Positions 7,145-63,973 of a stretch of DNA of 64,000 bases are shown in pieces. A program made the position numbers and the translations under genes. Source of the stretch: Lamellibrachia satsuma (Eukaryota > Annelida > Polychaeta > Sabellida > Siboglinidae); NCBI GenBank assembly GCA_033239005.1, contig BSQZ01000028.1, forward strand, positions 3,209,501 through 3,273,500. The letters run 5' to 3'. Each line of letters begins with the position of its first letter. The first letter of the stretch is position 1. The notes under the pieces are model-generated. The model ran no database searches, was not told the DNA's origin, and saw only the letters and a list, made by a program, of their open reading frames with translations.

Positions 7145-7147
<3 letters not shown>

Positions 7148-11954: not shown

Positions 11955-12638
11955 TCAGGCACGCCTTGTCGAGGTGATTCTGTCAGCCACATTTCTGGCA
12001 CTTTTACCATACGCGGGGCGCTCGGTGCGTCTGGTATGCCACAGGGGCATCTTGCCGTGACCCACCTCGCCGCAATAGATGCACACCCCTTTGGACTTGG
12101 CTTTCGGTTTCTCCGGCCTGGTTCCTCCCCTGTTGCGTACGTCCTGCTGTTTCCCCCGCCGATACAAACTGCTGATCGCATCCGTGCTCTGAGGGTCAAG
12201 TAGACGCATGTTAAACATAGCTACCCGAGTTAACATGGTATTCTCCGCTCGGATGGCGAGTGCCTTCATGGCGGTGAGGACATCTTTTTCGTCACTGCTC
12301 ATTAGGCTCTTGCCCGCTGTGCGAGTGAGGTCTTTTCTCAACTCCTCCTCGCAGCATTCCAGTAGTTGTGCGACTATGTCGGGTCCAACAAGTTTAGTAC
12401 CCGTCTTGTACTCACCCAAGCGGGTCATGAAGTATGACCAGGCCTCGCCCGTCCCGGCCAGTGCTACGGAAGGACGCTTGAGTTTCTCCATTTTCGTATT
12501 CGCGCCCAGCGCCCGGGGGACTGCGACGTGCACAGTGGCATGTACACTCAGCATAACAGCCACCACTGCCGCATCTGCGTGCGTAGCCGTATAGTCACAA
12601 TCCTCGATCGGACACTCCACGTTCACAGGCGCTATCAA
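11955..12638 (-). pseudogene. Gypsy gag (copy B)
   Basis: 227-codon gag remnant starting MIAPVNVECPIEDCDY (M to I at the second codon relative to copy A). A deletion equivalent to 5253-5505 of copy A joins the capsid part (TRVAMFNM) directly to RLLDPQSTDA, removing the inverted insert. The zinc knuckle begins CIYCGEVGHGK and then goes out of frame exactly as in copy A. Confidence 0.78.
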
Positions 12639-12650
12639 GTTGTTTAGTTA

Positions 12651-12838
12651 TAAATAAGAACAGAGTTCCATTTGTTCAGTCACTTTACTAAAGAGAAAGC
12701 GTGAAATGACAATAACTAAACAAGTATTGAACAGGTTGAAATGCGAATGTGTACTGGTTCCGTTTCTAGTAGCGCATGCGCACTGGTATAAGGGACCGGT
12801 TAATATGCAAAGCAAGAGACCGGTTATAATGTTCTCTA
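12651..12838 (-). repeat. Gypsy 5' LTR (copy B)
   Basis: 188 bp; keeps AAGAAC and ATGCGC like the 3' LTR at 1068-1255. Followed by ACGTG, the copied target site. Confidence 0.88.
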
Positions 12839-13155
12839 ACGTGTACCTAAGTTGTTATTTATATATGTTCCCTCTGTCTCTTTTATTCAGAAAATGTGGT
12901 AACGTTAGAAAAAGCTCCAAGCGCCAAGGCACCATTTGGTCAGCTAAATTATGGATAGGCGTTCATAAATCTACACAAGTAAATCTACATTCACTTGGAC
13001 ACTTCACAGTATCAGATTATTTCAACTGTAGCACCGTTCTCTGACTCATATTATCTCGTAGCGCCAACCTAGTGCCACAAATTGGTACATTTATTTAAAA
13101 TACAAATGTTTGATGTCACTGAATGTACCTGTTATCATTGCAAATGCGTGTTCAG

Positions 13156-13263
13156 ATCATTGTCCTAACAACTGCATCCGCTGCTCTCAACACGAATCGA
13201 CCAGATGTGTCGAATGTGAGCCTGGATTCATTCTGAGACCGGACAACACTTGCACACGAACTT
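13156..13263 (+). CDS. Gene 1 furin-like exon FU1, copy B
   Basis: Identical in length, splice sites and phases (1-1) to 6455-6562, and the protein reads the same (six Cys, C-x3-C-x2-C-x7-C-x2-C-x11-C). It arose with the tandem duplication. It can follow FU1 copy A in frame, so the mature protein may carry the same module twice. Confidence 0.78.
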
Positions 13264-13570
13264 GTAAGTTTATCGGTGAAACTATTCTTCCACCATTTCC
13301 ATGTTTTCTGCTGTAAAATGACCAGATCGTGTAATACAATAACATCACATTGCGGTGGGGTAATTATTTTGGCATGAAAATAATAAACCTAGCAGTAAGC
13401 TTGTAACAAAGTTAATCACGAATGTAAAACAACCGCGTTTTACATTAATGAAGCTTAGCCACAGTAATTACACAGGTGAGCATGTTTACCCGGTGTGAAT
13501 TAATAAAAGTTATGAATGGTGTTGATGATCAAATACTGCATTATTTGAACGCACTTTTTAGCGTCACCAC

Positions 13571-13598
13571 TACTGGGTATTTTTAAAAATACCCAGTA
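13571..13598. repeat. Perfect 28-bp palindrome, copy B
   Basis: Same palindrome as 6870-6897, unchanged. Confidence 0.9.
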
Positions 13599-13738
13599 TC
13601 AAAGTATTTTCGGGTAATGAGCTGTTTAAGGAATTCTTACATAGAGTTCTTGTAATAATGTCCACAATACAATTTTAGCACAGATATGTGTTATGATGTG
13701 TAACTGTATATGATGTATGGACAGAGTGCTACACACAT

Positions 13739-13932
<194 letters not shown>

Positions 13933-14793
13933 AGGTAACAAATATACCATGTAAATGTATAAAGAAATGTGTCAAAAAGAAATGTTTCACTTACCCGTGC
14001 ATGTTACCACGATTAAGCAGTTTTATGTATGCGTTTATTTTACTGGTTAAACCACTGGTACAAATAAAGTGATATGTTCCACAAAATAGCTCTTCGATGC
14101 CTTTAGCTGTAAATAGGAGACTGGGTATTTGACAATGGAGAACCATATTGATGTACTTTGCAGGAGGTATTGTTACTAATCTTTTTGGGACGTTTTCTTT
14201 TTAGAAATTAGAACATATTTAGGATGGTTGATGTGAATTCTTATTTACGGTTCTGGACATGTTTGTTTTGTCGGAATACTGAGACAGACTCACTTAAGTA
14301 AATAACACTTGTCGGTAAGTCTCAAACTGGCAAGTCAAACCAAATATCAAGACCTGCAAGTCAAGTATTAAGTAAATGACATCCAAGTTCAAGTTAAGTC
14401 TCGTATCATCTCTTTGAATGCCAAGTCAACTCGCAAGTCATGAAAATAGGTGACTCGAGTGCGACTCGAGTCAACCCCAATGACTCGAGTCAACACGTCT
14501 GATAAATAAATTGACCTTGGTTGAGTTCGACTTACCTCCTACCATTCCAGTTGCCACCAGCGTAAGTCCAACGCATTCTGTCTGACTTTGTTTAGTAATA
14601 ATTACTTCACACCGACCAATCAACACTGCCACTGCCTTCAGGCGATGGAAGCTCTGATCACCATGTCCATGGCAACCAACGTAACGTTAACAACAGCATT
14701 TGCTCTTATTCAGTCATCTTCTTTGTATCGTTTTGTTTCATAATATACAATTATTTTTCTGTCTGTGCTAGTGCAGTGATCGATATTAGTGTC

Positions 14794-15949
14794 ATTTAAC
14801 AAGATTTAACAAGATTTGCCATCCAAGCCAAAGGCCCAGATGGCAAGTGGACAAGGAAGCCATTGGCTTATCGAGAGTCCAACAATGTTCATCTACTTAT
14901 AACCCGCCCTCCTGAGATATGTGTCAACCTTTTTTTTAAACATATTCACGCTGCTAGCAGTTACACAATCTGTAGACAATTTGTTCCATTCATTTATTGT
15001 CCTCTATGAGAACGAGTGCTTCCTGATGTCCAATCTACATTGATCCTTTACTAATTTTACCTCATGTCCTCTAGTTCTGCTATCCTTCTTGAGTGAGAAA
15101 AACATATTTCTATCAATATTTTCATACCCATTCAATATCTTAAAAACTTCAATCTGATCTCCTCTTAACCTCCTTGTCTCTAGAGTTGTTAAACCACATT
15201 CTTTCAGGCGTTCTTCTTAACTAAGGTCTCTCAGTTCTGGAATCATTTTAGTTGCTCTCCTTTGTATGCGTTCAATCGTATCTATATCCTTCTTACGATA
15301 TGGTCGCCATGCTTGTATACAGTATTCTAAATGAGGTCTAACTATTGCTTTATAAAGAGGTATAAGTAACTTTTTTCCTTTGTATGTTATGTTTCTTCTA
15401 ATCAATCCAAGTATTTGATTACCCTTTGAAGCTACAATACCACACTGCTCTGAAACTTTCATATCAGCGCTTATTGTAACTCCTAAGTCCTTTTCTTTTA
15501 CAGTAGTACCCAGAACAGTATCTCCCATTTTATAGTTTACATTCAAGTTCCCATGTCCTGTATGTAGACATTTACATTTCCCAAAATTGAACAACATCTG
15601 CCATTTCTCAGACCATTTCACTAATCTGTCTAGATTGTTTTGTAAATGTTGTTTATCACCATCAGTATTAACCTTTCTAAACAGTTTTGTGTCATCCGCA
15701 AATTTAAGTACGTTACTTGTTATACTGTCGTCCAAGTCATTGATATAAATTAAGAATAATATAGGTCCTAATACTGCTCCTTGAGGTATCTCACTCAAAA
15801 CCGATTTCCAATTTGAAACTTCTCCATCTGCTACAACTCGTTGTCTTCTGTCAGTCAGCCATTGTTCTATCCAGTCAGTTATGCTATCCCCGATACCATG
15901 GGCTTTTAATTTAAGTAGTAATCTTTGATGTGACACTTTGTCAAAATTT
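14794..15949 (-). mobile_element. CR1-type LINE (copy B)
   Basis: Tandem copy of the LINE at 8005-9160, same truncation point and the same double AACAAGATTT end. The RT frame runs from the truncation point to 15217. It stops in LRDLS* because of an A-to-T change (TTCTTAACT for TTCATAACT). It carries no independent target duplication, as expected for a passenger of the segmental duplication. Confidence 0.88.
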
Positions 15950-16451
15950 ATATTATATTTAGGGACATTAGAAGCTGCATGCCGTTGGGTATGTTGCATG
16001 TCACGTGTGTTGCATATCATGTCACGCCACTGTACGCATGCGTCACACGTTATACAACCACTTTTCGGTGTTGGTCGGTAAGTCAAACTCAACCTGGGTT
16101 GACGTGTTTGCAGTTACAACACGGAGTAACCTCGATTATCCAGGCTCCGTGCTGTGGCGCCACCGTTTGTCGCACACATCGCCTGGATACAAAGTGTACT
16201 TTTCGTTGTGACGGAAATTATGTATGAACCCAGATTCTGATAAAGCTTTAAAAAAATTAATCAGGCGAAACAAATGTTTAGTGTAGAATATCGTGATAAT
16301 GACACTGACGCTGGCGCTTCAAGGAAACGCCTACAGAAAATGGAGTGGTGACAGTGGGTAACAACGTCAACGCTTCTGAGGATTAGTGAGACAAAACCTG
16401 AAGAAGATGTTATTACGTGCAGTAGCTTTGTAGTTTTCACCGTGTTTTCAG

Positions 16452-16559
16452 TTACGTGTGCCAGGCACTGTCTGCATTGCACTAACAATGGAGCGGGTAA
16501 ATGCGACAGGTGCGAATCTGGATATACACTGACGCACAACAATATCTGCTCACAAGATG
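16452..16559 (+). CDS. Gene 1 furin-like exon FU2 (intact)
   Basis: 108-nt exon between GTTTTCAG and GTGAGT, phase 1-1. Six cysteines with the same spacing as FU1 (CARHCLHC, CDRCESGY, then NNICSQD). This is the complete version of the exon broken at 9663-9754. Together with FU1 it forms the N-terminal Cys-rich part of the ectodomain. Furin-like repeats are known from receptor and secreted proteins; ligand unknown here. Confidence 0.8.
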
Positions 16560-27339: not shown

Positions 27340-27801
27340 AAAGTAGATTAGAATTAGATGATCGAAGCTGTCTGGGCTGTCTTATAGGAATGAGATGATC
27401 GAAGCTGTCTGGGCTGTCTTATAGGAATGAGCAGTGAATGTAAATATGTCTTATAGGAATGAGCAGTGAATGTAAATATGTCTTATAGGAATGAGCAGTG
27501 AATGTAAATATGTCTTATAGGAATGAGCAGTGAATGTAAATATGTCTTATAGGAATGAGCAGTGAATGTAAATATGTCTTATAGGAATGAGCAGTGAATG
27601 TAAATATGTCTTGTAGGAATGAGCAGTGAATGTAAATATGTCTTGTAGGAATGAGCAGTGAATGTAAATATGTCTTGTAGGAATGAGCAGTGAATGTAAA
27701 TATGTCTTGTAGGAATGAGCAGTGAATGTAAATATGTCTTATAGGAATGAGCAGTGAATGTAAATATGTCTTATAGGAATGAGCAGTGAATGTAAATATG
27801 C
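27340..27801. repeat. 32-bp minisatellite
   Basis: Two longer units (37 bp, with GATCGAAGCTGTCTGGGCTG) followed by 12 near-identical 32-bp units (TCTTATAGGAATGAGCAGTG ...). No spacers, so not CRISPR. Confidence 0.95.
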
Positions 27802-44250: not shown

Positions 44251-44273
44251 TCTACAAGTCAGTGTAGAGCCCT

Positions 44274-44882
44274 GAATTCATACCTGGAGAATCAGAATCT
44301 GGACTAATTTTTTTGCATTTATGTGATAGTTTCAGAGGTGAAGACACATAAAGTTGGGCTTTTGTTCGTTCTGGAATTATATTTTTCAGATTTTGGTGTA
44401 CCACTACTGCCTGATCATTCATCACAGACACGAAATGTTATTTGATTTGAAGTATATACCTATAGGTGCTTCTCCAAAAGAAAACTTATCTGAATCAAGT
44501 ATAATATTAAAGTGTGGCTAGGGTCCAAATATGAGAAGAAAATATAAAATGTGAAAAAGTACCCTCATACCAGAGGTGGTTTGACCATGTGGGCAATTAT
44601 CTAGCATCATGAACTTTTAGTATAATTAACATACATATATTAGCTATATATGTACCAAGACTTTGTCTCTCAATTCTTTCAAGTTTAAAAAATTTTATGT
44701 TTCTACCCCCTGTTTAAAAGCTCGAGAACAAGATAAGCGACTGTATCAATTAACAAAATCAGTACTTTCCAGAAATAAAAATATTTATTTGCAAATTACT
44801 AAATAATTATATTTCAGTCACAGGCATTGATATCTAACATTATAATAAAATATTCACAAAATTCTCACAAAACCGTTATTAG
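44274..44882. repeat. Inner left inverted arm
   Basis: Reverse complement of about 48885-49499 with high similarity (for example AGTACTTTCCAGAAATAAAA against TTTTATTTCTGGAAAGTACT). Confidence 0.85.
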
Positions 44883-45011
44883 AAATATAGTAATTGTTTC
44901 ATATAACATTACAGCACATATTCTATTATATTGTCTCATTTACTCCATTCCTGAGCTTGTGAAAATTGTATTTGCATTAAATGGAACTCATTAAAGATTC
45001 TTGTAGACCTA

Positions 45012-46290
45012 TTATTTGTGCATCCTCTGTAAAGTAATGGAACATATAATCCTAAGCAACATGTGGAAACACCTGCACAAGCATAACATCATTCTCCACT
45101 TCCAACACGGATTCCAGTCGGGACTGTCTTGTGAATCTCAACTCATTGAGACAGTCCACGACTGGATGACTGCTATGGACAACAAGACCCAAATTGACGC
45201 AATCCTGCTTGACTTTGCTAAAGCCTTCGACAAAGTGCCTCACCTACGTCTTCTATCAAAATTGACCTCCTACGGAATCACTGGAAACACTCAAAATTGG
45301 ATCAAATCTTTTCTATCCAACCGCAAACAGAGAGTCTCAGTTAACGGTGTCCTGTCGGACATCACAGATGTCACATCTGGTGTCCCACAGGGTTCAGTTC
45401 TAGGACCTGTCCTCTTCTTACTCTACATAAATGACATAAATGGGAACATCAAATCTCCTATACGCCTTTTTGCAGATGATAGTATTATATATCGTAAAAT
45501 TTCTTCCAAAAACGACCACGAAATTCTCCAAACTGACCTAAACCAACTCCAAACATGGTCAGACAAATGGCAAATGGAATTTAATGTATCTAAATGCGTC
45601 CACCTTCCAATAACAAACAAAACTAAACCCAGCACACACAAGTACTCGCTTTCTGGCCAGCCATTATCCACCGTATCCAGCCACTCATACCTCGGAGTTA
45701 AATTGGATTCCAAATTAACCTGGACAAATCACGTCACTGACATAACTTCAAAATCTTGAAATGTTTAGGCATGATTAAACGAACTCTTGGCCCATGTAAA
45801 CCCGAAGTTAAACAAACAGCCTACAACATGCTAATCCGGCCAAAACTTGAGTACTCTTCACCCATATGGAATCCCCACACCTTTTCACAAATTAAAAACC
45901 TTGAAAGAGTGCAACACTCTGCTGCCAGATTTGTTAAAAATGACTACAGACGAAACACAAATCCAGCAGATCTAATTACTGCCCTTGGATGGCCAACCCT
46001 CGAACGAAGGCGCATTATCAAACAAGCCACTACCTTCTACAAAATTCTAAACAACATTATTGAGATCACCCCCCCTTCAGGTCTACTAACTCGCTCTCGA
46101 ACCCGTGGACAATACATAGCCCCCAAGTGTCGTATAAATGCAATGGTCTTTTCATTTTATCCCAGAGCCATTCGCATATGGAATATGATTCCATCAAAAA
46201 TTACCAACATAAAAAACCCAAAATCATTTCAAGAAGCTATTATGGAACTCCCTTTCACCACACCTCCTCACCTAAACTGCCTTTAAAACA
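45012..46290 (+). mobile_element. Jockey/CR1-like LINE, 5'-truncated
   Basis: Plus-strand RT beginning at LCILCKVMEHIILSNMW. Shows HFQHGFQSGLSCESQLIETV, LLDFAKAFDKVPH, SGVPQGSVLGPVLF, the catalytic RLFADDSIIY, and after a one-base shift near 45756 LGMIKRTLG, RPKLEYSSPIWNPH, VQHSAARFVKNDY and FYPRAIRIWNMIPSKI. The stop is at 46287. Apart from the one shift it is intact over 420 codons. It is inserted inside the inverted-repeat element. Confidence 0.88.
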
Positions 46291-48861: not shown

Positions 48862-48884
48862 TTACAACTGCATATATATAATAC

Positions 48885-49771
48885 AGGTTTGTGAGAACTG
48901 TGTGAACATTCATTTATTCTGATGTTAAATATAAACCTGAGCCTATGATTGAAATATAGTTATTTAGTAATTTGCAAATAAAGTAAATATTTTTATTTCT
49001 GGAAAGTACTGATTTTGTTAATTGATACAGTCGCTTAGCTTGCTCTCGAGTTCTGAAACAGGGGGTAGAAACATAAAATTATTTTAAATTGAAAGAATTG
49101 AGAGACAAAGTCTAAACTTGGTACACATATAGCTAATATATGTATGTTAATTATACTAAAATCTCATGATGCTAGATAATTGCTCATATGGTCAAACCAC
49201 CCCTGGTATGAGGGTACTTTTTCACATTTTATATTTTCTTCTCATATTTGGACCCTAGCCACACTTTAATATTAGACTTGAATCAGATAAATTTTCTTTT
49301 GGAGAAGCACCTGTAGGTATATACTTCAAATGAAATAACATTTGTTGTCTGTGATGAATAATCAGGTAGTAGAGGTACCCCAAAATCTGAAAAATATAAT
49401 TCCAGAATGAACAAAAGCCCAACTTTAGGTGTCTTTACCTCTGAAACTATCACATAAATAAAAAAATAGTCCAGATTCAGATTCTCCAGGCATGAATTAG
49501 GTACTGTAGCAATTTGTAGCTTAATATCTTCAAAATGAAGAAAGTTATTACCATTCAGAAATCATCCATAAAAGACTTGCTGCAGTCGTGAGTGTGAAGA
49601 AAGTACAACAGGCCCTGCATTCAATCAACCATCACTTCCTGACTCATTGCAATTTTGCACTGACATTTTGCATGCAGCCATCATTTAGATGCAAATAAAA
49701 ATTTCATAAAAATCGGAGATGGTCACCCGGGAAGATTTCAGGATTTTGGTTGATTTGGCACGGAATGACCC
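48885..49771. repeat. Right inverted arm
   Basis: Continuous 0.89-kb arm pairing with 44274-44882 and 41869-41995. The piece 49500-49640 has no clear partner on the left. Confidence 0.8.
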
Positions 49772-50100: not shown

Positions 50101-51550
50101 GTAGATCCAATGGAGACAGAGAGTGCTGCCTTCAAGGCAGAAATGTCTGATGAGGCAAGTGCAGACGATAATTCCTTCATCCAAGCTGAGGACGAATCCA
50201 TCTACGATGTGCCTCCATCACATTCCCGCGATGTCTCGGAGACGGGATCAGAGGATGATGTTTTTAACCCTGGGTTTGAAGGTCCTCCCAACCCTCCGGT
50301 GCTGCCCCCTAAGAAGAAGATGGTGCGAGAGAGCATTGATGATCGACTCGGGATCGTGACACGTCTTGCTGAGGCGAACCCGCAGCGTCCTGTTCCTGTT
50401 CCCCGAAGGTCTGTCATCCCCAAGAAGCCTGTGCCCCGGCCTCGCATAAAACGGAAATCACAAATGTCTGTCGAGTCTCCTGGAAATGAGGAGAACCCTG
50501 CCAGAGATGCCACACAAGGTGATAGTGATGTCACTCAGGGCGCCGTGCAATGCAAGATGGAGTCTAGTGTAGTTGACCGGGGAGGGGATGATAGTCACCT
50601 TGCCTTGTGTGCTGAGGCAGAGGAGCAGAACAGTAACGAGGAGCCAATCAGTGCTGAACTGAATTCTAGAGAGGAACCAATCAGTGTTGAACAGAACTCT
50701 GCAGTGTATGACGACGTCTATGTAAAACCTGATGATATTGTCTATGGCAGCGATGGAGAAATCACTATTGTGAAGAGCAACAAAGGCAGTGTCACTAGCA
50801 GCGACGATGACGCCAGTGGTGATGAGTGCCGCGGTGACTACATCGACATGAGTGATGAGTTACTTGCTAGCATCGGTGGCGGTGACACGTACCCAGGCCC
50901 AGTGGAAGACCGCGTGGTCATTGGGGCAGAGACAACAGAGGAGGATGACCATCGGTCATCAGGCAGCCAGTCATCTGAATGCATCTACGGCCAGGTCTGG
51001 GTGATGAATTCTGGGAAAACGAAATCTGTCAGACAATCAAGTGATGCATCACTGATGTTGCACCCACAAACCAGACAGTCTGTTGTCTCATTCTGTGCGC
51101 CCCCTCCGTCCTACGCACCCCCACCCCTACCACAAGGGGTGGTGGTACTCCCTGAATTACCCAACCATGCCCCACCCTGTGTTCCACCCCGACCGGTCGG
51201 TTACAAACCGCCCCCTCAGACTACCACATGGGGTGCAGCTGAAGCTCGCCCTGACTCAGCCGCATTCAATGAATTCATCAGTGAACGCGTTGTTGAGTCA
51301 GAGAAACAAACTGAGCTGGTGGACACGTCCAGTAGCCAGGGTTCCGACATGGACACCCCACCCCAAAAACCAAAACGGAAATTGCTACCCTTGTCCAGGG
51401 AGTCATCACCCTTTAGAGAGGTCATGAGGGAACGGGAGGGTGATCAGGAGGACGGACGCCCCAAACCCCCTCCGAGGGTGCCCAACCCATTCCAATCGAT
51501 GTACGATCCCATCAGTCGAACTTACAGCTTCGACAATGACCTCGTCTCAG
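50101..51550 (+). CDS. ARAP-like gene, acidic/proline-rich linker exon
   Basis: Large exon from GTGAACAG (phase 0) to TCAG before GTGTAG (phase 1), 483 codons plus one base. No folded domain. Instead Tyr motifs (ESIYDVPPS, AVYDDVYVKP, GDYIDMSDE, SECIYGQVW), which suit SH2 binding after phosphorylation, and polyproline SH3-type sites (PPNPPVLPPKKK, RPVPVPRRSVIPKKPVPRPR, APPPSYAPPPLPQ, CVPPRPVGYKPPP), plus acidic Glu/Asp/Ser stretches. Such a linker between SAM and the first PH domain is typical of ARAP proteins. The first Met of the frame (50110) is internal; the exon starts at 50101 (VDPMETES) by splicing. Confidence 0.8.
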
Positions 51551-51774
51551 GTGTAGTATTGTCAACTTGTGTTACAGTCATACGTCACCATTCCCCTGTT
51601 TTTAAAGTATTGACTTTGACCGTTAGATCGGGTAACTAGTGAAAGTGGGAATAGCCTTATGTCATAGTTTGTACAACCAGACTGATTTGCCCTTTTTTAT
51701 TTTGACCAGATCCAGTAAACAATAATTTAGTAGTTTGTCTGTTGATTTCATCAGCACTAAAGAACACATTTGCA

Positions 51775-51910
51775 CAAATGAGCTAGCGTGTTGTAGTGGA
51801 CAATAGAGCTAGCATGTTGTAGTGGACGCTATAGCTAGCATATTGTAGTGGACACTAGAGCTAGCATGTTGTAGTGGTCACTAGAGCCAGTGTATTGTAG
51901 TGGACATTAT
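51775..51910. repeat. 26-27-bp minisatellite
   Basis: Five copies of GAGCTAGCATGTTGTAGTGG-type units in the intron. Confidence 0.9.
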
Positions 51911-52197
51911 ATAATGATTCTAAAACAAGACAACCAAAAACAGAATTGAATTGGAGAAGAAACATTAATTTATATTTCAAAATGTGACATTGCCACATGT
52001 GTACAATGTTTCTATGATAGATTTTTTAAGTGATGCAGATTTTTAAGAAAAAAAATTAATATCTACCTTGGGATTGTTTTATTTACGTAAACATTTTGAC
52101 AACAATGCAGTTGTTCTTTTGAGCATATGTTTCATTGCTTATATTGGAATACATTTGCCATTGTTCATGCCAAACATGTTTTTGTTCGACCCTGCAG

Positions 52198-52319
52198 CGG
52201 AGGCTTGGGAAAGTGATGATAATCTAAGTGATGGGGGAGACTTCTTTGAAGAGGAAGATTTCCAGCCTTCACCATTAGATTGTCTGAAAGCGTCTATCCC
52301 TGTTGTACCTGCAGTCCAG
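52198..52319 (+). CDS. ARAP-like gene, acidic exon before PH1
   Basis: 122-nt exon after CCTGCAG, phase 1 in, phase 0 out (GTAATG). Encodes AEAWESDDNLSDGGDFFEEE and ends SIPVVPAVQ. Acidic, unstructured, directly before the first PH domain. Confidence 0.7.
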
Positions 52320-52374
52320 GTAATGGCCTTCATGTTCAGTGTAATAGTCAGGGATTTAAATTAGTCTGAGAGTA

Positions 52375-52557
52375 GTCTCTCTCTCTCACTGCATTCTTTC
52401 TCCTCTCTTCTCTCTCCCCCCCCTCTCCTTTCTTTCTCCCCTCTTCCCTCTCTTTCTCTCTCTGTCTGTCTTTGTCTCTCACCGCTTTCTCTCTTCTCTG
52501 TGTCACCCTATCTTCCCACTCTCTGCCCCCCATATATATATCTATATATATATATAT

Positions 52558-52637
<80 letters not shown>

Positions 52638-52651
52638 TTATTTATATCCCC

Positions 52652-52689
<38 letters not shown>

Positions 52690-52715
52690 CTCCCCTCTCT
52701 CCTTCTCTACATCCC
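52375..52715. repeat. Polypyrimidine and (TA)n microsatellite
   Basis: CT-rich tract (52375-52535), then (AT)n of about 140 bp broken by short TATC and CTCT runs. Confidence 0.95.
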
Positions 52716-52929
52716 CCCTCTCCACCACACTCTCTCCATATCTCCCTCCCTGCTCTCTACATGTCCTCTACAATGACAAGATATTAAATATATTAAATGT
52801 GGCAACATTTGTTTAAACCTAGAATCATCCTGCTTCCAACTGTTTGTTAGAATTCCAAAGCAATTTCTGAAATGATACAGGAAATTACGGATTTTGGCTA
52901 GGCACACCTTTGCCTTGTAAACTGAATTA

Positions 52930-53290
52930 TAATACTCTCATCAATGGTAATACTGATCTGCCTTACTGAGTCATAGATCTTGTACTGATCTGCCTTGTTG
53001 ACCAATTGATCATGTACTGATCTGCTTTGTTGAGCCATAGATCATGTACTGATCTGCCTTGTTGAGCCATAGATCATGTAGTGATCTGCCTTGTTGAACC
53101 ATAGATCGTAGTGATTTGCCTTGTTGAGCCAGAGATCATGTACTGATCTGTATTACTGATCTGCCTTACTGAGTCATAGGTCATGTACAGATCTACCTTA
53201 CTGAACCATAGATCATGTATAGATCTGCTCTACTCAGCCATAGATCTTGTACATACCTGCTCTACTGGGCCATAGATATGTATAATATTT
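52930..53290. repeat. 32-bp minisatellite
   Basis: About ten diverged units with the core ACTGATCTGCCTTGTTGAGC and CATAGATCATGT. Confidence 0.88.
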
Positions 53291-53457
53291 TCCTACCAAA
53301 CTTGGCTACTTCTGTATTCTGGCAAACTCATTCTCGTGGTATGCCCTCTGATGGCATGATGTGGCATTACGTTGATGTTTGAAGTACCTCAAGTTTACAG
53401 TTGAATTGGTATCTTGTGAAAGAACACCTTCCTTTGACTGTTTACATTGTTTTGTAG

Positions 53458-53501
53458 AACAACATTACTGAGAGGAAAGGCTACTTGTACAAGTGTGCAA
53501 G
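53458..53501 (+). CDS. ARAP-like gene, PH1 exon a
   Basis: 44-nt exon after TTTGTAG, phase 0 in, phase 2 out (GTATGG). Encodes NNITERKGYLYKCA, the K-G-Y-L-Y-K first strand of a PH domain. Confidence 0.7.
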
Positions 53502-53988
53502 GTATGGACAGTAATGTCATTTAAATGTGTTATGTTAAGACCATTCTTCTCATAAATTAAACCAAGTAAAAACTTTGTAATGATGACCATAACTGGCACT
53601 CTATTAAAGAGTTGCCATTTTATTGTTGTGGATTTATTTAAGTGTATATTTATTTAATTGTGCATTGTCAGGATGCAAACATGGTAATTATACATTGCCA
53701 ACCAAAAGCATTAATATATATATCACCATAGAAGAATTCTGATGCAGACATAATCCCTTGGAACAAAGATAGCATGTCTATGCAGGAAATAACATTTAGT
53801 AGGTCTTGCATATATTTTGTGTTGTTATTATTTCAAGAAAAATATTTGGGTTTTTGATTGTGGTAAAATTGGTAGTGCATTCCAAAGAGTTGGTGCAGCG
53901 ATCAAGAAAGCCCTAGTTTCAATATTTGTTTCAACTCTGGGAACAAAGGTAAAATTGCTAAGCTTAACAAGATGATGTATGTTGACAG

Positions 53989-54070
53989 CAAACGCAGTGC
54001 ATCCCGAGGCTGGATCAAGGAATGGGTCAATTTTGATGGCAAATACTTGAAATACTCCTCCAACGATAAG
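53989..54070 (+). CDS. ARAP-like gene, PH1 exon b
   Basis: 82-nt exon after TTGACAG, phase 2 in (AG-C gives Ser), phase 0 out (GTGGAT). Encodes KRSASRGWIKEWVNFDGKYL and then KYSSNDK, the W-x2-R/E-W-V-x-F-D-G-x-Y-L strand pair of ARAP-type PH1. An upstream repeat-like piece (53880-53960) resembles one at 27260-27330. Confidence 0.72.
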
Positions 54071-54419
54071 GTGGATTTATTTATATTTATTTACGGTATA
54101 TAATTTTGTCAATATTATTGCACTGGCAGATTACTAATCGTATTGTTGATGTTGTTTGCAGTTACACGCTTTATTTGAATTGGTGTATGAATGACAAATG
54201 GTCAACATTTAGAAGATGACACATTACATGTTGTAAACGTTTAACACTGACTTGTGACATTTACATGTTGCATAAGCATTTTTTTTTTAAACAACATAAA
54301 ACTAAAACTTTAAAAGTGCAAGGTCTGATATAAATATATACTTTGCCTGTTTTCTGTTTGACATAGATGTTTCATGGTGAATTGTTTACATTGCATAAGG
54401 AGGGAAACATAATTTTATA

Positions 54420-54515
54420 TAGGGCTAGGTGTTATAAAGGGCCAGGTGTTATATAGGGCCAGGTGTTATATAGGGCCAGGTGTTATAAAGGGCCAGGTGT
54501 TATAAAGGGCCATGA
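54420..54515. repeat. 17-bp minisatellite
   Basis: Six copies of GGGCCAGGTGTTATA(T/A)A. Core shared with 43935-44043. Confidence 0.9.
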
Positions 54516-54942
54516 ATGCCTGTGTCCAGAGGTGTTGGAGATTGTCAGCAGCTGTTTGTGAATGTACACAACAGAAAGGTTGATATTCATAAACAGACAG
54601 TAAAATTGTGGTTCATAAGAACACTTGGCCAGTTAAGATGTTAGAATAGATATAGTTATTGTTTAGTTTATACTATAAAACAAGATTTTTACGACAAAAC
54701 TTGTCTTGAATTTGTAGCTTTAATTAGTCAAACCTGTTTGCAATCACTGGCTTGTGCAGGACTCAGAAAATTTTACATTTACATATTAGTCTTTAATGAT
54801 TAGGAAAATGAATATCTAGGTCACTTTGTAGTGTTTAATATGTTTTAGATAATTAAAACTTATGAAGGATTTGTTTACTATTTTATACTATTGTTATAAT
54901 TTTGATCTTGTGTGTTGACCTTGGTTATTTCGTCCTTGACAG

Positions 54943-55005
54943 AGTGTCATCTCCAAGCGAATGATCTCTCTCTCCAGCATCATCAATGTCACCAATGGAG
55001 TGAAA
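54943..55005 (+). CDS. ARAP-like gene, PH1 exon c
   Basis: 63-nt exon after TTGACAG, phase 0-0 (donor GTAGGT). Encodes SVISKRMISLSSIINVTNGV: the G/S-x-I-x-L strand of the PH fold. Confidence 0.7.
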
Positions 55006-55289
55006 GTAGGTCATCTCCATGGAGACCATGTTTTAGTTTCCAATATTCAGCACATTCTGTACTAGTAAAAAGTTGCATGTATAAAACTGTCCATTTCGTT
55101 GCAATGATCTTTGGTCAACCAAGGGTGTTTACTACAGTTACATAAAGTTGCACAGTGATACAGTTGTAATTAATTAGTTTCGGTTATAATTTATTACAGT
55201 CGGATTATTGAGTTGTATATACAGTCCAGGTGTCAAGTGTGGATAAAGTTATTTTATGGCATTCTTTGTTGTATCTTGTGTGTTTTCAG

Positions 55290-55365
55290 ACCGGGGAGCC
55301 GCATCCATTCCGCTTCCAAGTGACCACAGTTGACCGTGTCTACACTTTCGCCACAGATGAGATCG
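55290..55365 (+). CDS. ARAP-like gene, PH1 exon d
   Basis: 76-nt exon after GTTTTCAG, phase 0 in, phase 1 out (GTCAGT). Encodes TGEPHPFRFQVTTVDRVYTF then ATDEI: the F-x-V-T-T-x-x-R-x-Y-x-F strands before the PH C-terminal helix. Confidence 0.75.
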
Positions 55366-55379
55366 GTCAGTCATTATAC

Positions 55380-55490
55380 ATTATGAAGAACGCCTAAAAG
55401 AATGTCGTTTAACAACCATAGAGACAAGGAGGCTTAGAGGAGTTCAAATTGAAGTTTTTATGATTTTGAATGGGTATATAAATATTGATA
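55380..55490 (+). mobile_element. CR1 fragment
   Basis: Plus-strand frame YEERLKECRLTTIETRRLRG, then VQIEVFMILNGYINID, same family and region as the LINE at 8300-8440. It starts 15 bp after the exon donor. Confidence 0.8.
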
Positions 55491-55590
55491 TGTGCACACT
55501 CCACACAACGTGTACACGCCACACAATGTGCACTCACCACACAACATGTGCACGCACCACACAACATGTGCACGCACCACACAACGTACA
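55490..55590. repeat. CACACAACATGTGCACG minisatellite
   Basis: About five units of roughly 20 bp. Confidence 0.85.
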
Positions 55591-55609
55591 CACAGAAGAA
55601 TGGCAGCAG

Positions 55610-55752
55610 TTAAAGGTTCCTCCTCCGTTCAATTAAAGGTTCTTCCTCAGTTCAATTAAAGGTTCCTCCTCAGTTCAATTAAAGGGTCCTCCTCAGTTCA
55701 ATTAAAGGGTCCTCCTCAGTTCAGTTAAAGATTCCTCCTCAGTTCAGTTTTG
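55610..55752. repeat. 23-24-bp minisatellite
   Basis: Six units of CCTCCTCAGTTCAATTAAAG. Confidence 0.9.
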
Positions 55753-55817
55753 TCACTCATCTCATTTTCAGGCTCATTTGAACCCATCTAGTATTGACTA
55801 CGACATCATAGCTTAGT

Positions 55818-57775
55818 TGTACAAATTTCGCACTAGTCCAAGAGTTTAATGTAAGAATACCATGGAACCTAAAAGTTAAATACAAAAAGCTGATTTTTTT
55901 CTCTACAGATCCCTGAAAAAGTCTAGAGTAACATACTAAAAATCCCCATGAATCTGCCTTGAGCTAAGCGCAGAATTCAAGATGGCGTCCAAGATGGCGG
56001 CAACCCGTTGATTAACTATGTGACTTTTAAACCACTTATGCTAAATGACAAATGTTGGTGTCTAGGGTAGGGTTATGCTCTATCCAACTAATATCGTTAA
56101 TGCAGTCTAGTAGTAGTAGTAAAAGCTTTATTTTACAATGGTGACCATGTCACATTTATCGCGTTATTATCAATGGGCCATCAATGGAGTGTAGAATCAT
56201 CAGAACGTGCATTTATTTAATTTTTGACTCTAATTAGGTGCACATCCGCAGGAAAAGGTTAGAATAGAGTAACACAGTCAGCCAAGTTACTGTTGTACTT
56301 GGTTTAAACAAAAGCTTGAAGCCAGATATGGATCAACATAGTTGTAGCATGTCTCAATGGTCTAATGAGTGTGGTCTGCTTTCGAGATCAAGCTTACCGC
56401 ATCAGCAAATGGGCTGCACAAAAAAACAGACACTCAGAGGATGGGATTATTAAAATGCCAGCTATGCTGGTCAGGAACACGGTCAGGATTGCAGCATATG
56501 AAACTGATGTATTCCCTGCTTTAAGCAGCAGTGAGTCTCTTGTTAGCTTCTCCAGCTCCATTTCAGTGGTTCATCCAGGGTGTGACCACCTCACAGAACC
56601 CAGACAGTATGCTTGTGAGGAGGAAGTGTGCCGCTATAGGTGAGGTCATCGTAGCTGCGACCAGCCCAAGGTCGTACATTTCTCTACCTTTACTTGCTTT
56701 GACAACGTTTATTCACTGGAAGTACAGGTCGAGGGAGCTGATTGACTTACTCAGCAGTCTTGTGTTGGCTGAGAGCTACAATGAGGTGATGAAGTTGGTA
56801 AATGTGCAAATGAAGGACAACTCTTTCCTCCGCCAGACTTTGTAGAGGGCCTTGTGCTATTTGTCTTTGACAATGCTAGTGTCAACATTGTCACTGCAAC
56901 AAGGCAGGGACTTCCCAGGCGATGGAAATATAAACTGTCTTCGGAATTCATGTTGGAAACACTGCCTCTGACTACAGTGGCTGCCTGGTTCCACATCTAC
57001 CACACTCACTCTATGCATGCAGTGATGGAGTGGAGACACCCTGCCTCCAACTGACTGGGGCTGGTCATTGCAGGAGGACGGACATTTGGGTTCTGTACCA
57101 AGCGATAGCCCTCCAGACCAAGACAAGCTCCTTTGCATGGTTTCTTGTGGTTGTAAGGGTCATTGTGGGAAGACCTGTGGATACAGAAAGGTGGGACTGT
57201 ACAGCCCTCTGTATATCCTGCAGTGGACAGTTGTGTTCCAACACATACATACAGGATGAATCTGCCTACACGTGGTGGGGTTGATGGTAAAACTTTATGC
57301 AACTGGTGCTGATTCTGCAATAGTGTAAATGTATTGATAGCCTAGCATCGTGTTGAGGCAATGTGTCTACATCAGTATGTAATGCTGAATTGAATGTTAT
57401 GCTGTCAACTGCTGTAAGTAATAAACCAATTGGTATATAATATTTTATTCACCATTTCCCTTTATATTTGCCCTAATTAGAGTAAAAAGTGAAATAAATG
57501 CATGTTCTGACGACGGTAGAATGTTTTAGTGGTGTTAGTTGGATAGAAAACCCTGCCCTAGACACCAACATTTGCCCTCTAGCATAAGTGGTTCAGAAGT
57601 TGTATAGTTAATCAGTGTGTTGACGCCATCATGGATTCTGCATTTAGCTCAAGGTGGCTTCATGGGGATTTTTAGTATGTTACTCTGGACCTTTTCAGGG
57701 ATCTGTGGTGCAAAAATCAGCTTTTTGTATCGAACTTTTGGTTCTACCTAAAACTCCTGGACTACACTTGTACAC
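55818..57775. mobile_element. Inverted-repeat DNA transposon remnant
   Basis: Left arm 55818-56107 and right arm 57517-57775 are reverse complements (for example AACATACTAAAAATCCCCAT and ACCACTTATGCTA). Between them lie plus-strand transposase-like pieces: 56365-56530 (RISKWAAQKNRHSEDGI, MPAMLVRNTVRIAAYETDVF), 56531-56845 (FIHWKYRSRELIDLLSSLVL, ESYNEVMKLVNVQMKDN) and 56850-56890 (GLVLFVFDNASVNIVT, with an F-D-N-A motif typical of a catalytic Asp strand). Frames are broken. Superfamily not assigned. Confidence 0.65.
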
Positions 57776-57986
57776 ATTTTTTACCTAATTTTGGTTTAAT
57801 CATCGGAAAATGTACTAAATTTCATATCATTATTTGTATTATATAAAATTCAGTGTTAATATTTTATTTTAAAATAACTTGAGGGTTTATTTGATTTATA
57901 ATGTTGATTTAATGTGAAGCAAATAAAACTCTCTTACCATGTTCTGTATCAGGTGTTTTATTTTGATTATTATTTACATGTTTCAG

Positions 57987-58039
57987 ATAATTTGTCAATA
58001 TGGGCAAATGTTTTGATGCGGGCAGTCATTGAAAATGAG
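57987..58039 (+). CDS. ARAP-like gene, PH1 exon e (C-terminal helix)
   Basis: 53-nt exon after GTTTCAG, phase 1 in (G-AT gives Asp), phase 0 out (GTTTGT). Encodes DNLSIWANVLMRAVIENE, the C-terminal PH helix with its signature Trp. It is the only exon found between 55365 and 58662 that restores both phase and fold. Its length (53) is exactly what phases 1 to 0 require. Confidence 0.68.
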
Positions 58040-58121
58040 GTTTGTAACATTTTCTTAAATCCAGCCCAGCCACCTGTTACCACAGCGTGCAACTGATGCT
58101 AAAGAAATTCATTTAATGAAT

Positions 58122-58470
58122 AACAATTTATTATGTAACATGTAGTGTGTTGGTAGTGGAATTGTTTACATAAATTTATTATTATCTTTGTTTCTTTTGG
58201 ATGATATTAACAATTTATTATGTAACATGTTGTGTGTTGGTAGTGGAATTGTTTACATAAAATTATTATTATCTTTGTTTCTTTTGGATGATATTAACAA
58301 TTTATTATGTGACATGTAGTGTGTTGGTAGTGGAATTGTTTACATAAATTTATTATTATCTTTGTTTCTTTTAGATGATATTAACAATTTATTATGTAAC
58401 ATGTAGTGTGTTGGTAGTTTAATTGTTTACATACATTTATTATTATCTTTGTTTCTTTTGGATGATATTT
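58122..58470. repeat. 87-bp tandem repeat
   Basis: Four units beginning AACAATTTATTATGTAACAT with starts at 58122, 58209, 58295 and 58383. Confidence 0.92.
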
Positions 58471-58661
58471 TTTTAATATTCAACTTGGATATTTTTAAGT
58501 ACTGAACATGGATATCTGGGAAACTTTCCATCTGGGATTTGGGTGGCAATCTTGTTCATTCTTGTTAAACTGAAGTTCTGATTAATGTTGATTTTACACT
58601 TGGAAGCCGCCACATGGCCTGCCTCTGATTGTCTTACCATGGAGCGCAACTGTCATTTCAG

Positions 58662-58706
58662 GTGTTGTTTCAAGAAGGGGGAGACATGGCTCAGCCCGAC
58701 AAACAG
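58662..58706 (+). CDS. ARAP-like gene, PH1-PH2 linker exon
   Basis: 45-nt exon after CATTTCAG, phase 0-0 (donor GTAAGA). Encodes VLFQEGGDMAQPDKQ, linking PH1 to PH2. Confidence 0.65.
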
Positions 58707-58759
58707 GTAAGACAACTAATGATCACGCACGTTCATCATGTTTTCACTATTTCACAACT

Positions 58760-60855
58760 CCTCCGTGGCTTAGGAAACACTGTGGAATTCTCTGTGGCTT
58801 AGCAAACATTGTGGAATTCTCTGTGGCTTAGCAAACATTGTGGAATTCTCTGTAGCTTAGCAAACACTGTGGAATTCTCTGTGGCATAGCAAACACTGTG
58901 GAATTCTCTGTGGCTTAGCAAACATTGTGGAATTCTCTGTAGCTTAGCAAACATTGTGGAATTCTCTGTGGCTTAGCAAACACTGTGGAATTCTCTGTGG
59001 CATAGCAAACACTGTGGAATTCTCTGGCATAGCAAACACTGTGAAATTCTCTGTGGCTTAGCAAACATTGTGGAATTCTCTGTGGCTTAGCAAACACTGT
59101 GGAATTCTCTGTGGCTTAGCAAACACTGTGGAATTCTCTGTGGCATAGCAAACACTGTGAAATTCTCTGTGGCATAGCAAACATTGTGGAATTCTCTGTG
59201 GCTTAGCAAACACTGTGGAATTCTCTGTGGCATAGCAAACATTGTGGAATTCTCTGTGGCTTAGCAAACACTGTGGAATTCTCTGTGGCATAGCAAACAT
59301 TGTGGAATTCTCTGTGGCTTAGCAAACATTGTGGAATTCTCTGTGGCTTAGCAAACATTGTGGAATTCTCTGTAGCTTAGCAAACACTGTGGAATTCTCT
59401 GTAGCTTAGCAAACACTGTGTTGTGGCATGAATTCTCTGGCATAGCAAACACTGTGAAATTCTGTTTGCAAACACTGTGGAATTCTCTTGATAGCAAACA
59501 CTGTGGAACTGTGCTTAGCAAACATTGTGGAATTCTCTGTAGCTTAGCAAACATTGTGGAATTCTCTGTGGCTTAGCAAACACTGTGGAATTCTCTGTCA
59601 TAGCAAACACTGTGTGAAATTCTCTGTGGCTTAGCAAACATTGTGAATTCTCTGTGGCTTAGCAAACACTGTGAATTCTCTGTGCATAGCAAACACTGTG
59701 AAATTCTCTGTGCATAGCAAACATTGTGGAATCTCTGTGGCATAAAACATTGTGGAATTCTCTGTGGCTTAGCAAACACTGTGGAATTCTCTGTGGCATA
59801 GCAAACATTGTGGAATTCTCTGTGGCTTAGCAAACACTGTGGAATTCTCTGTGGCATAGCAAACATTGTGGAATTCTCTGTGGCTTAGCAAACAGTGTGG
59901 AATTCTCTGTGGCTTAGCAAACATTGTGGAATTCTCTGTAGCTTAGCAAACACTGTGGAATTCTCTGTAGCTTAGCAAACACTGTTGAATTATCTGTAGC
60001 TTAGCAAACACTGTGAAATTCTCTGTGGCTAGGCAAACACTGAAATTCTCTGTGGCTTAGCAAACACTGTGGAATTCTCTGTGGCTTAGCAAACACTGTG
60101 GAATTCTCTGTGGCTTAGCAAACACTGTGGAATTCTCTGTGGCTTAGCAAACACTGTGGAATTCTCTGTGACTTAACAAACACTGTGGAATTCTCTGTGC
60201 CTTAGCAAACACTGTGGACTTCTCTGTGACTTAGCAAACACTGTGGAATTCTCCGTGGCTTAACAAACACTGTGGAATTCTCTGTGGCATAGCAAACACT
60301 GTGGAATTCTCTGTGGCTTAGCAAACACTGGAATTCTCTGTGGCTTAGCAAACACTGTGGAATTCTCTGTGGCTTAGCAAACACTGTGGAATTCTCTGTG
60401 GCTTAGCAAACACTGGAATTCTCTGTGGCTTAGCAAACACTGGAATTCTCTGTGGCTTAGCAAACACTGTGGAATTCTCTGTGGCTTAGCAAACACTGTG
60501 GATTTCTCTGTGACTTAGCAAACACTGTGAAATTCTCTGTAGCTTAGCAAACACTATGAAATTCGCTGTTGCTTAGCAAACACTGTGGAATTCTCTGTGG
60601 CTTAGCAAAAACTGTGGACTTCTCTGTGGCTTAGCAAACACTGTGGAATTCTCTGTAGCTTAGCAAACACTGTGAAATTCTCTGTAGCTTGGCAAACACT
60701 GTGGAATTCTCTGTAGCTTGGCAAACACTGTGGAATTCTCTGTAGTTTAGCAAATACAGTGGAATTATCTGTAGCTTTGCAAACACTGTGGAATTCTCTG
60801 TGGCTTAGCAAACACTGTGGAATTCTCTGTGACTTAGCAAACACTGGAATTATCT
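58760..60855. repeat. 29-bp minisatellite array, about 70 copies
   Basis: Unit GTGGCTTAGCAAACACTGTG GAATTCTCT with two main variants (CTTAGC and CATAGC) that alternate, plus deletions between 59400 and 59760. Fills most of the intron between the linker exon and PH2. Minus-strand frames through it are artefacts. Confidence 0.97.
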
Positions 60856-61168
60856 GCCTGCTGCAGTCAGAGAAGTGAACTCCATAGCTGCTTTTAACGT
60901 GGTTTTAAATACAAAGATTTTAAAATATCCTTGTGTACAGCAACAATGACTTTTTAATGATATGGACCTTTTATGTATTTATTTAACATATTTGAACGTA
61001 TTTTGAACTTATTTTAAACTTAGTTTAAACTTTTTTTAACATTGTTAGTGCCTTTGAGCTGGTTTTTATTGGAATATGAATGTCTGATTGTCTTATTTAT
61101 TACGTCTATATAGCACTTTTCTCAGTGTATGTCAGCAGAATTAACAGAATGCTTGTGTATGTTGAAAG

Positions 61169-61252
61169 GGCTTTGTGAAGATACAGGGAGCCAAGGGGAA
61201 GCGATACCTCGCTGTCAAGTCAGACCAGTTCGCTTACTACAACACATACAAC
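61169..61252 (+). CDS. ARAP-like gene, PH2 exon a
   Basis: 84-nt exon, acceptor TTGAAAG, donor GTAAGT, phase 0-0. Encodes GFVKIQGAKGKRYLAVKSDQ, then FAYYNTYN. This is the start of a second PH domain: G-F-V/L-x-I-x-G-x-K-x-K-x-Y at strand 1-2, as in ARAP PH2. The polypyrimidine tract is poor (TATGTTGAAAG), a weak acceptor. Confidence 0.72.
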
Positions 61253-61779
61253 GTAAGTGTGTCACACACCTCGGGTGTGTAGTTGCTAGTAGACAATTGA
61301 TGTGATTGCGTTACTGACATTTTTAATTATGATTACACTGTAAAATACATAAATTCAGTCAACTTTACTATTACAGTTACATTGTTTTATATATGGTAAA
61401 TCTATAAGTAAAATAAAAATAAATAATTTAATTAGATTGTATTTTAAGTGTGTTAGTTAGTTAATAGAGTGGACTCCACTTAACAGAATCACATTGAGCC
61501 AGAGCAATTTCATTCTACTACACGGCGGATTCTATCATCCACAAGTCTCTTAGGCTGGGCCCACTTTAATGGGAGTATGAGATGTCTTGTCCAACAATGT
61601 TAGAGTAATGACCGTGATAATTGTTGGTTCTATAAAATAAACAAAGGCTTCATTTATGCAGTTACTAGTCAAGTTGCCCGGTAGAAAAGACAACCACTGC
61701 AAGAACTTACGGCTCCTCGCAGTACACAGTCAAGTCTTCGTGGGGCAGTGTCAATGGGAATGATGGATATTCATGTCCC
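61253..61779. other. Intron, no recognised feature
   Basis: AT-rich, nothing supported before the 24-bp satellite. Confidence 0.4.
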
Positions 61780-61957
61780 AAAACTATGTCTGACATAAAT
61801 CACATAACTATGTCTGACATAGATCACATAACTATGTCCGACATAGATCGCATAACTATGTCCGACATATATCACATAACTATGTCCGACATATATCACA
61901 TAACTATGTCTGACATAGATCACATAACTATGTCTGACATAGATCACATAACTCAGA
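61780..61957. repeat. 24-bp minisatellite
   Basis: Seven copies of ATGTCTGACATAGATCACAT-type units. Confidence 0.95.
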
Positions 61958-62224
61958 ACAGTCGTAGACAACACTCATAGAGCTGCTAACAATTGTACGT
62001 AACTGAGAACTCCTATTGTTCCAAGTTATGTAATTTACGTCAGATGTCCGCATAAACTCCTGCATAATATCCCTATCCCCAGTGGAATTTCGATTTGTTT
62101 TTAATGTACAAAACTCATGGGCCCCCAAGCACAACTACAACATTTCAGCCCCATACGTGCGAAACTGATGGTATGAGGGAACACACAGGCACCGAGACAC
62201 AGGCTGAAACTGTTTTATGGTACA

Positions 62225-63862
62225 GACATTTGTTTGCAGGACTACAAGGCTGGCTGTCACATCCATGCGATTGTGTTTTGGTTCCAGGACTACAAGGCTG
62301 GCTGTCACATCCATGTGATTGTGTTTTGGTTGCAGGACTACAAGGCTGACTGTCACATCCATGTGATTGTGTTTTGGTTGCAGGACTAAAAGGCTGGCTG
62401 TCACATCCATGTGATTGTGTTTTGGTTGCAGGACTACAAGGCTGGCTGTCACATCCATGTGATTATGTTTTGGTTCCAAGACTACAAGGCTGGCTGTCAC
62501 ACCCATGTGATTGTGTTTTGGTTGCAGGACTACAAGGCTGACTGTCACATCCATGCGATTGTGTTTTGGTTGCAGGACTAAAAGGCTGGCTGTCACATTC
62601 ATGTGATTGTGTTTTGGTTGCAGGACTACAAGGCTGGCTGTCACATCCATGTGATTGTGTTTTGGTTGCAGGACTACAAGGCTGGCTGTCATATCCATGT
62701 GATTGTGTTTTGGTTGCAGGACTAAAAGGCTGGCTGTCACATTCATGTGATTGTGTTTTGGTTGCAGGACTACAAGGCTGGCTGTCACATCCATGTGATT
62801 GTGTTTTGGTTGCAGGACTACAAGGCTGGCTGTCACATCCATGTGATTGTGTTTTGGTTGCAGGACTACAAGGCTGGCTGTCACATCCATGTGATTGTGT
62901 TTTGGTTGCAGGATTACAAGGCTGGCTGTCACATCCGCATGATTGTGTTTTGGTTGCAGGACTACAAGCCTGACTGTCATATCCATGTGATTGTGTTTTG
63001 GTTGCAGGACTACAAGGCTGGCTGTCACATCCATGTGATTGTGTTTTGGTTGCAGGACTACAAGGCTGGCTGTCACATCCGCATGATTGTGTTTTGGTTG
63101 CAGGACTACAAGGCTGGCTGTCACATCCGCATGATTGTGTTTTGGTTGCAGGACTACAAGGCTGGCTGTCACATCCATGTGATTGTGTTTTGGTTGCAGG
63201 ACTAAAAGGCTGGCTGTCACATCCATGTGATTGTGTTTTGGTTGCGGGACTAAAAGGCTGGCTGTCACATCCATGTGATTGTGTTTTGGTGGACTAAAGG
63301 CTGGCTGTCACATCCATGTGATTGTGTTTTGTGGGACTACAAGGCTGGCTGTCACATCCATGTGATTGTGTTTTGGTTGCGGGACTACAAGGCTGGCTGT
63401 CACATCCATGTGATTGTGTTTTGGTTGCAGGACTACAAGGCTGGCTGTCACATCCATGTGATTGTGTTTTGGTTGCAGGACTACAAGGCTGGCTGTCACA
63501 TCCATGTGATTGTGTTTTGGTTGCAGGACTACAAGGCTGGCTGTCACATCCATGTGATTGTGTTTTGGTTGCAGGACTACAAGGCTGGCTGTCACATCCG
63601 CATGATTGTGTTTTGGTTGCAGGACTACAAGGCTGGCTGTCACACCCATGTGATTGTGTTTTGGTTGCAGGACTACAAGGCTGGCTGTCACATCCATGTG
63701 ATTGTGTTTTGGTTGCAGGACTACAAGCCTGACTGTCACATCCATGTGATTGTGTTTTGGTTGCAGGACTACAAGGCTGGCTGTCACATCCATGTGATTG
63801 TGTTTTGGTTGCGGGACTACAAGGCTGGCTGTCACATCCGCATGATTGTGTTTTGGTTGCAG
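62225..63862 (+). repeat. 48-bp minisatellite of duplicated 3' splice sites
   Basis: About 34 units. Each is TTGTGTTTTGGTTGCAG followed by GACTACAAGGCTGGCTG and TCACATCCATGTGA, i.e. intron end, AG, and the first codons of the exon that truly begins at 63863. The 48-bp period is a multiple of three and the frame (DYKAGCHIHVIVFWLQ) stays open in most units. Five units carry TAA (near 62379, 62579, 62724, 63204 and 63252), two near 63290-63340 have indels, and about four have lost the AG (GCGGG or TGTGGG). Confidence 0.95.
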
Positions 63863-63973
63863 GACTACAAGGCTGGCTGCCCCATCCACATGATAGAGAT
63901 GAAGTTAGCTTCCGTGAAGGAACGCACGAAGATGAGACTACAGCTGACAACACCATACGCCGCTTACATGTCA
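63863..63973 (+). CDS. ARAP-like gene, PH2 exon b
   Basis: 111-nt exon after TTGGTTGCAG, phase 0, to a donor at TCA-GTAACC (an alternative GTCAGT lies 4 bp earlier). Encodes DYKAGCPIHMIEMKLASVKE, RTKMRLQLTTPYAAYMS: middle strands of PH2, continuing YYNTYN from 61252. It differs from the satellite units in CCCC for TCAC and in continuing past ATGATAG. The gene runs off the window, where the rest of PH2 and any Arf-GAP/Rho-GAP domains would follow. Confidence 0.72.

Follow-up and report, generated by a model that had tools for sequence, protein, structure and literature searches.

The window analysed here is a stretch of 64,000 nucleotides from the siboglinid annelid Lamellibrachia satsuma (contig BSQZ01000028.1), with a G+C content of 41.3%. 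Its forward strand carries a gene with ten exons located between 50101 and 63973, which when joined give a stop-free frame of 710 codons, and coding exons of this gene extend to the window end at 64000. A first PH domain is found in the product (Pfam PH, E 1.7e-10). The best PDB sequence for this domain is centaurin-delta 1 (2cod, E 3.8e-8), which we take to be ARAP2; next come interactor protein for cytohesin exchange factors 1 (5mr1, E 2.6e-5), which is another protein, and, in third place, ARAP3 (7yir, E 1.5e-4). Because its first PH domain is most like those of ARAP proteins, the gene looks ARAP-like in sequence and is so named here, the family being called after its Arf-GAP, Rho-GAP, ankyrin and PH parts and having RA domains as well. 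In the ARAP plan a second PH domain follows the first, and on that plan a putative second PH domain could plausibly begin in the exons at 61169 and 63863. The fragment from 61169-61252 plus 63863-63973 was not recognised by Pfam or by PDB sequences, and when it was aligned to the first PH domain, 165 of 500 shuffles did as well. A protein search for homologues brought up 275 candidates, none at E 1e-3. The intron between these two exons, both of which are in phase 0 at that intron, ends in a long tandem array. The features of the gene and of the array are as follows.

50101-51550, 52198-52319, 53458-53501 and 53989-54070, + strand: four of the eight further exons of the ARAP-like gene
54943-55005, 55290-55365, 57987-58039 and 58662-58706, + strand: the other four of these eight exons
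61169..61252, + strand: exon preceding the array (GFVKIQGAKGKRYLAVKSDQFAYYNTYN), phase 0, donor GTAAGT
62229..63888, + strand: 48-bp minisatellite of about 34 copies (36 bases of exon start and 12 of intron end), from repeat finding, unit cutting and shuffles
62240, + strand: base after the 5'-most acceptor; the left flank, ACATTTGTTTGCAG, is unique intron, and a stop is reached at codon 50 if this acceptor is used
62240..63253, + strand: distal block of 20 AG-bearing acceptors, each leading into an in-frame TAA, from an acceptor-by-acceptor reading
63248..63430, + strand: degenerate stretch, with AG lost at 63248, 63292, 63335 and 63383 and with units of 44 and 43 bases
63431..63862, + strand: proximal open block, with eight AG-bearing in-frame acceptors (63431 to 63767), from the same acceptor reading
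63863..63973, + strand: coding exon (DYKAGCPIHMIEMKLASVK...), phase 0 start, donor GTAACC after 63973 or GTCAGT after 63969

Tandem Repeats Finder reports the array at 62229-63888 as a repeat of period 48 with 34.8 copies and 94% matches, and cutting it into units gives 34 units plus the exon, and hence 35 acceptor positions. Full length is kept by 32 of the 34 units, which fall into 15 distinct types (the commonest represented by 12 units) with a mean pairwise identity of 95.1%; the two short units have 44 and 43 bases. Each unit consists of the last 12 intronic bases, ending the intron with TTTTGGTTGCAG, and the first 36 exonic bases. The first 17 bases of unit and exon are identical, and over the 36 bases of the exon start at 63863 the consensus unit matches at 30 and its CGCATG variant at 31. 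When positions 18-36 were shuffled 100,000 times, the agreement of the consensus was equalled once and that of the CGCATG variant, in as many shuffles, never. The array units are thus copies of the gene's own 3' splice site, beyond chance. Among the 32 full-length units, divergence over these 36 bases averages 2.0 between units and 6.5 between units and exon; the array is homogenised, with the boundary copy excluded. The unique left flank of the 5'-most acceptor probably retains the ancestral acceptor context.

A scan for exon-edge copies, reaching up to 3 kb each way with 20 shuffles per edge, covered both ends of the ten exons, and only the edge at this array (34 of 36 bases) exceeded its own shuffles; none of the other 19 of the 20 edges gave a boundary array beyond shuffles, two of them just tying with their highest shuffle. 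An RNA family search gave no Rfam match, and the repeat unit was not found in viral contigs.

Of the 35 acceptor positions, 29 keep their AG: 20 lead to an in-frame TAA, eight are upstream and open, and one is the native site at 63863. The AG is lost at 62480, 63248, 63292, 63335, 63383 and 63815, the last of these, in the proximal block, being preceded by GCGG in place of GCAG. Since the deficits of the two short units total 9, every position but 63292 is in frame with the exon. A TAA follows GAC in 6 of the 34 units, and most units retain an intact 16-residue frame. The preliminary description of the locus, in which some 34 copies of a 48-bp unit carrying the acceptor and the exon start ran up to the exon at 63863, most of them with an AG and an open 16-residue frame, so that the spliceosome would face tens of in-frame acceptors, is borne out on all of these points. 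Distal stops and a proximal open block, which it placed at about 63346-63862, are indeed present; the frame is open slightly further, from 63254, but AG and open frame occur together only from 63431 on. The eight open upstream acceptors would add 432 down to 96 bases, or 144 down to 32 residues. Insertion in multiples of 16 residues, as proposed in that description, is thus available from 32 to 144 residues, but the single step of 16 is not, because the nearest upstream acceptor, 63815, lacks its AG and the smallest possible insert is 32 residues. The repeated core of the predicted insert, HIHVIVFWL, is very hydrophobic.

Local sequence does not single out 63863. With a score matrix built from the gene's nine other acceptors, and so from nine sites only, the native site reaches 7.68, and so do 26 of the 28 AG sites upstream of it; of the remaining two, 62288 has a score of 5.14 and the 5'-most acceptor one of 10.25, the highest among the 35 positions. 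Under leave-one-out scoring the nine other acceptors themselves lie between -3.7 and 11.9. A GTCAC resembling a branch point also stands in the consensus unit, 28 bases before the AG and with no other AG in between. With all but one of the upstream scores equal to or above that of the native site, and with a branch-point-like GTCAC in the unit itself, local sequence alone would not explain a preference for 63863.

Three other views of the array's structure were set aside. An exonic protein repeat, rather than intron, is ruled out by the in-frame TAA met from all 20 AG-bearing sites upstream of 63254. Nothing supports a reading of the units as tandem micro-exons; the highest-scoring GT of the unit (CAT/GTGATT) has 2.92, a value that does not itself exclude them, as the ten assigned donors of the gene range from -2.68 to 8.34 under leave-one-out scoring. 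By the same kind of scoring the donor GTAACC after 63973 is weak. Recursive splicing does not apply, as the AG is followed by GA and not by GT and no zero-length exon forms.

The distribution of changes among units bears on whether the upstream acceptors are maintained. A switch under selection would be expected to spare its AG and its reading frame. Tests whose numbers are small, and whose units are non-independent through concerted evolution so that weak constraint may be missed, gave no hint of such sparing: the AG is preserved no better than other positions, the substitutions appear neutral, and the stops are placed as chance could place them. The AG is substituted in 4 of the 32 full-length units, and two further sites lost it through an indel; variation affects 12 of the 36 exonic and 3 of the 12 acceptor positions. 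The 15 variant types comprise nine non-synonymous changes, five synonymous changes and one stop, where neutrality, with a transition bias assumed, predicts shares of 0.68, 0.26 and 0.06, respectively. Within the open block next to the exon, six variant types are non-synonymous and one is synonymous. Pointing the other way, the last 11 units are without TAA, which may be chance (P = 0.075 for such a placement), and have slightly fewer substitutions per site, 0.021 against 0.030 for the upstream units.

Arrays of closely similar anatomy have been described in amphioxus under the name of mirages, which are minisatellite-like tandem duplications of an intron-exon boundary in which many copies keep the splice signals (PMC3087553, as far as its available sections go). 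The present array matches this description: its unit spans the boundary, its copies abut the genuine exon, many of them have an AG, and the boundary copy is excluded. The available parts of the amphioxus reports give the same combination, of boundary repeat, splice signals, homogenisation and an excluded boundary copy, for Adh3, BflGb6, BflGb9, troponin C and PGBD5, and BflGb6 is like the present array also in combining the 3' end of an intron with the 5' part of an exon (PMC3087553). In the globin mirages the copy at the boundary is spared from homogenisation; new introns, the authors suggest, could arise by way of mirages (PMC3087553, sections available). At 48 bp the present unit falls in the range of 10-72 bp stated for Adh3 units in the same sections (PMC3087553), whereas the copy number, about 34, compares with 3 and 6 in two BflGb6 haplotypes (PMC3087553) and with 2 to 7 in PGBD5 assemblies, the PGBD5 mirage having, according to the assembly, 2 or 7 copies of 60 bp and 3 or 6 of 108 bp (PMC3902484, in the portion available). 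Among the papers listed by literature searches, none pointed to an array on the acceptor side with so high a copy number, the Adh3 copy numbers lying outside this comparison. The ARAP-like gene differs from the amphioxus mirage genes, and the likeness is here one of DNA anatomy. Tandem arrays have reportedly been considered in the origin of introns before, in a 2007 work by Zhuo on 'introns from tandem arrays'.

As to function, the globin mirage authors allow that the copies could serve as cryptic splice sites, but the Adh3 data and their own RT-PCR on globin suggest regular splicing (PMC3087553, available sections), and the available portion of a second report states that the Adh and troponin C mirages generate no aberrant mRNAs (PMC3902484). 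Tandem repeats at exon-intron boundaries also occur in human segmental duplications, where they can give alternative splicing in paralogs; they resemble the present array in position and differ from it in having units that average 30 bp, present four times, in recent paralogs (PMC2812944, from what is available of it).

The array is most probably a large mirage that is tolerated and not maintained for a function, with splicing probably at the last acceptor, 63863, as a rule. Its placement in the amphioxus phenomenon would be by anatomy. In such a scheme a first tandem duplication of one intron-exon boundary would have been multiplied by slippage or unequal crossing-over; the array would keep homogenising itself, with the terminal, real exon copy outside that exchange; and splicing would normally pick 63863. 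Under exon definition, nearness of an acceptor to the downstream donor favours its choice. The site at 63863 would be favoured because it lies nearest to that donor (the exon has about 111 bases) in a gene whose introns are mostly long and whose exons are short, and also because the earlier sites would come at a price, 20 of them leading to a premature stop and the other eight adding 32 to 144 residues. The earlier acceptors are probably used as low-level noise. The surroundings are rich in minisatellites, 3,555 of the 10,678 bases at 51551-62228 lying in arrays with units of at least 10 bases, and the array is most likely a tolerated accident in such a stretch of genome. The preliminary description had left a choice between a self-made switch and a tolerated accident; the accident fits better, while the switch finds no support beyond the anatomy of the array.

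Among other explanations, one is that repeat number tunes the amount of the ARAP-like protein, each extra acceptor diverting splicing into stop-containing transcripts that are degraded. Such a dosage effect would suit the 20 AG-bearing acceptors that end in stops and the top score of the 5'-most acceptor, and it has a human counterpart in the VNTR of ABCA7 intron 18, a 25-bp unit that begins with the GT of the exon 18 donor and is present about 12 to 427 times (PMC5954066, available portion). Like the present array, that VNTR has a splice site inside its unit, and in ABCA7 the site of a neighbouring unit is alternatively used; it differs in lying on the donor side, in its out-of-frame 25-bp unit and in being human (PMC5954066, same portion). 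Longer ABCA7 alleles are reported there to have lower expression and more skipping of exon 19, but how often the donor of the next unit is used is independent of VNTR length; the effect of length is one of skipping the next exon rather than of using the unit's own site (PMC5954066). This independence of length counts against dosage through the acceptors, as do the amphioxus mirages, which the available sections report without disturbance of splicing (PMC3087553, PMC3902484), and a dosage effect is considered unlikely.

A further possibility is a graded switch, in which the eight proximal acceptors would add 32-144 residues to a lipid-binding domain of an ARAP-like signalling protein, the 20 distal ones would feed decay, and allele length would set both form and dose; the chance of this is slim. 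Slim, too, is that of a switch proper, a regulated choice among the eight in-frame proximal acceptors that would lengthen a loop of the putative second PH domain by 32 to 144 residues and change its binding. A period of 48, a multiple of 3, the phase 0 of both flanking exons and the open proximal block are what such a switch would use, but a period of 3n has a one-in-three chance of arising anyway. Neither the AG nor the codons show constraint, with the open block at six non-synonymous to one synonymous; the nearest site, 63815, is dead, and the insert would have the hydrophobic core HIHVIVFWL. The second PH domain, moreover, is only putative, its fragment going unrecognised by Pfam and PDB sequences.

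An assembly artefact, with a different true copy number or with merged haplotypes, is likewise very improbable: long arrays are often misassembled, and the draft-genome version of one globin mirage array appears to be aberrantly assembled (PMC3087553, in the sections available), but the 15 types among 32 full-length units are scattered along the array, as a simple copying error would not leave them, so that the copy number may be wrong while the existence of the array is hardly in doubt.

Taken as a tolerated mirage, the array would be a large example, in an ARAP-like gene, of a phenomenon already described in amphioxus. It would also offer a natural experiment on the choice of 3' splice sites, as one intron presents 28 alternative AG-bearing acceptors at steps of about 48 bases. 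If only the last acceptor is used, position relative to the downstream donor, and not local sequence, would decide; differences in allele length would allow the cost of each added site to be measured.

Other repeats lie in the same gene and elsewhere in the window. The intron of the 48-bp array also has a 24-bp array of seven copies (61782-61953), and most of the preceding intron is taken up by a 29-bp minisatellite of about 73 copies (58761-60846), clear of both exon edges. Another intron of the gene has inverted repeats of 82% identity, about 1.4 kb apart (55865-56091 and 57535-57744), which enclose ORFs; one of these, at 56320-56643, has no Pfam match, and the repeats with their ORFs are perhaps a DNA transposon. 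At 27351-27800, 37-bp and 32-bp arrays have units with CTTATAG followed by GAATGAG, an acceptor-like string; they may form another boundary array.

A reverse transcriptase ORF (45007-45759) is flanked by inverted copies of about 630 bp with 90% identity (44271-44888 and 48872-49501). Near the start of the window, 1068-9760 and 9751-16549 form a nearly head-to-tail duplication, in which ORFs for a Gypsy-type integrase and reverse transcriptase occur together with another reverse transcriptase, of LINE-like type. The greater part of 2169-9760 is found again at 9751-16549, split into four pieces of 98.1-98.5% identity, at offsets of about 6.7 to 7.6 kb, and these shifting offsets point to deletions. 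Repeats of 188 bp occur in the duplication at 1068 and 5950 and once more at 12651, and a (TCG)n run at 2893-2951, when read on the minus strand, gives a stretch of Asp residues within the Gypsy-type polyprotein ORF.
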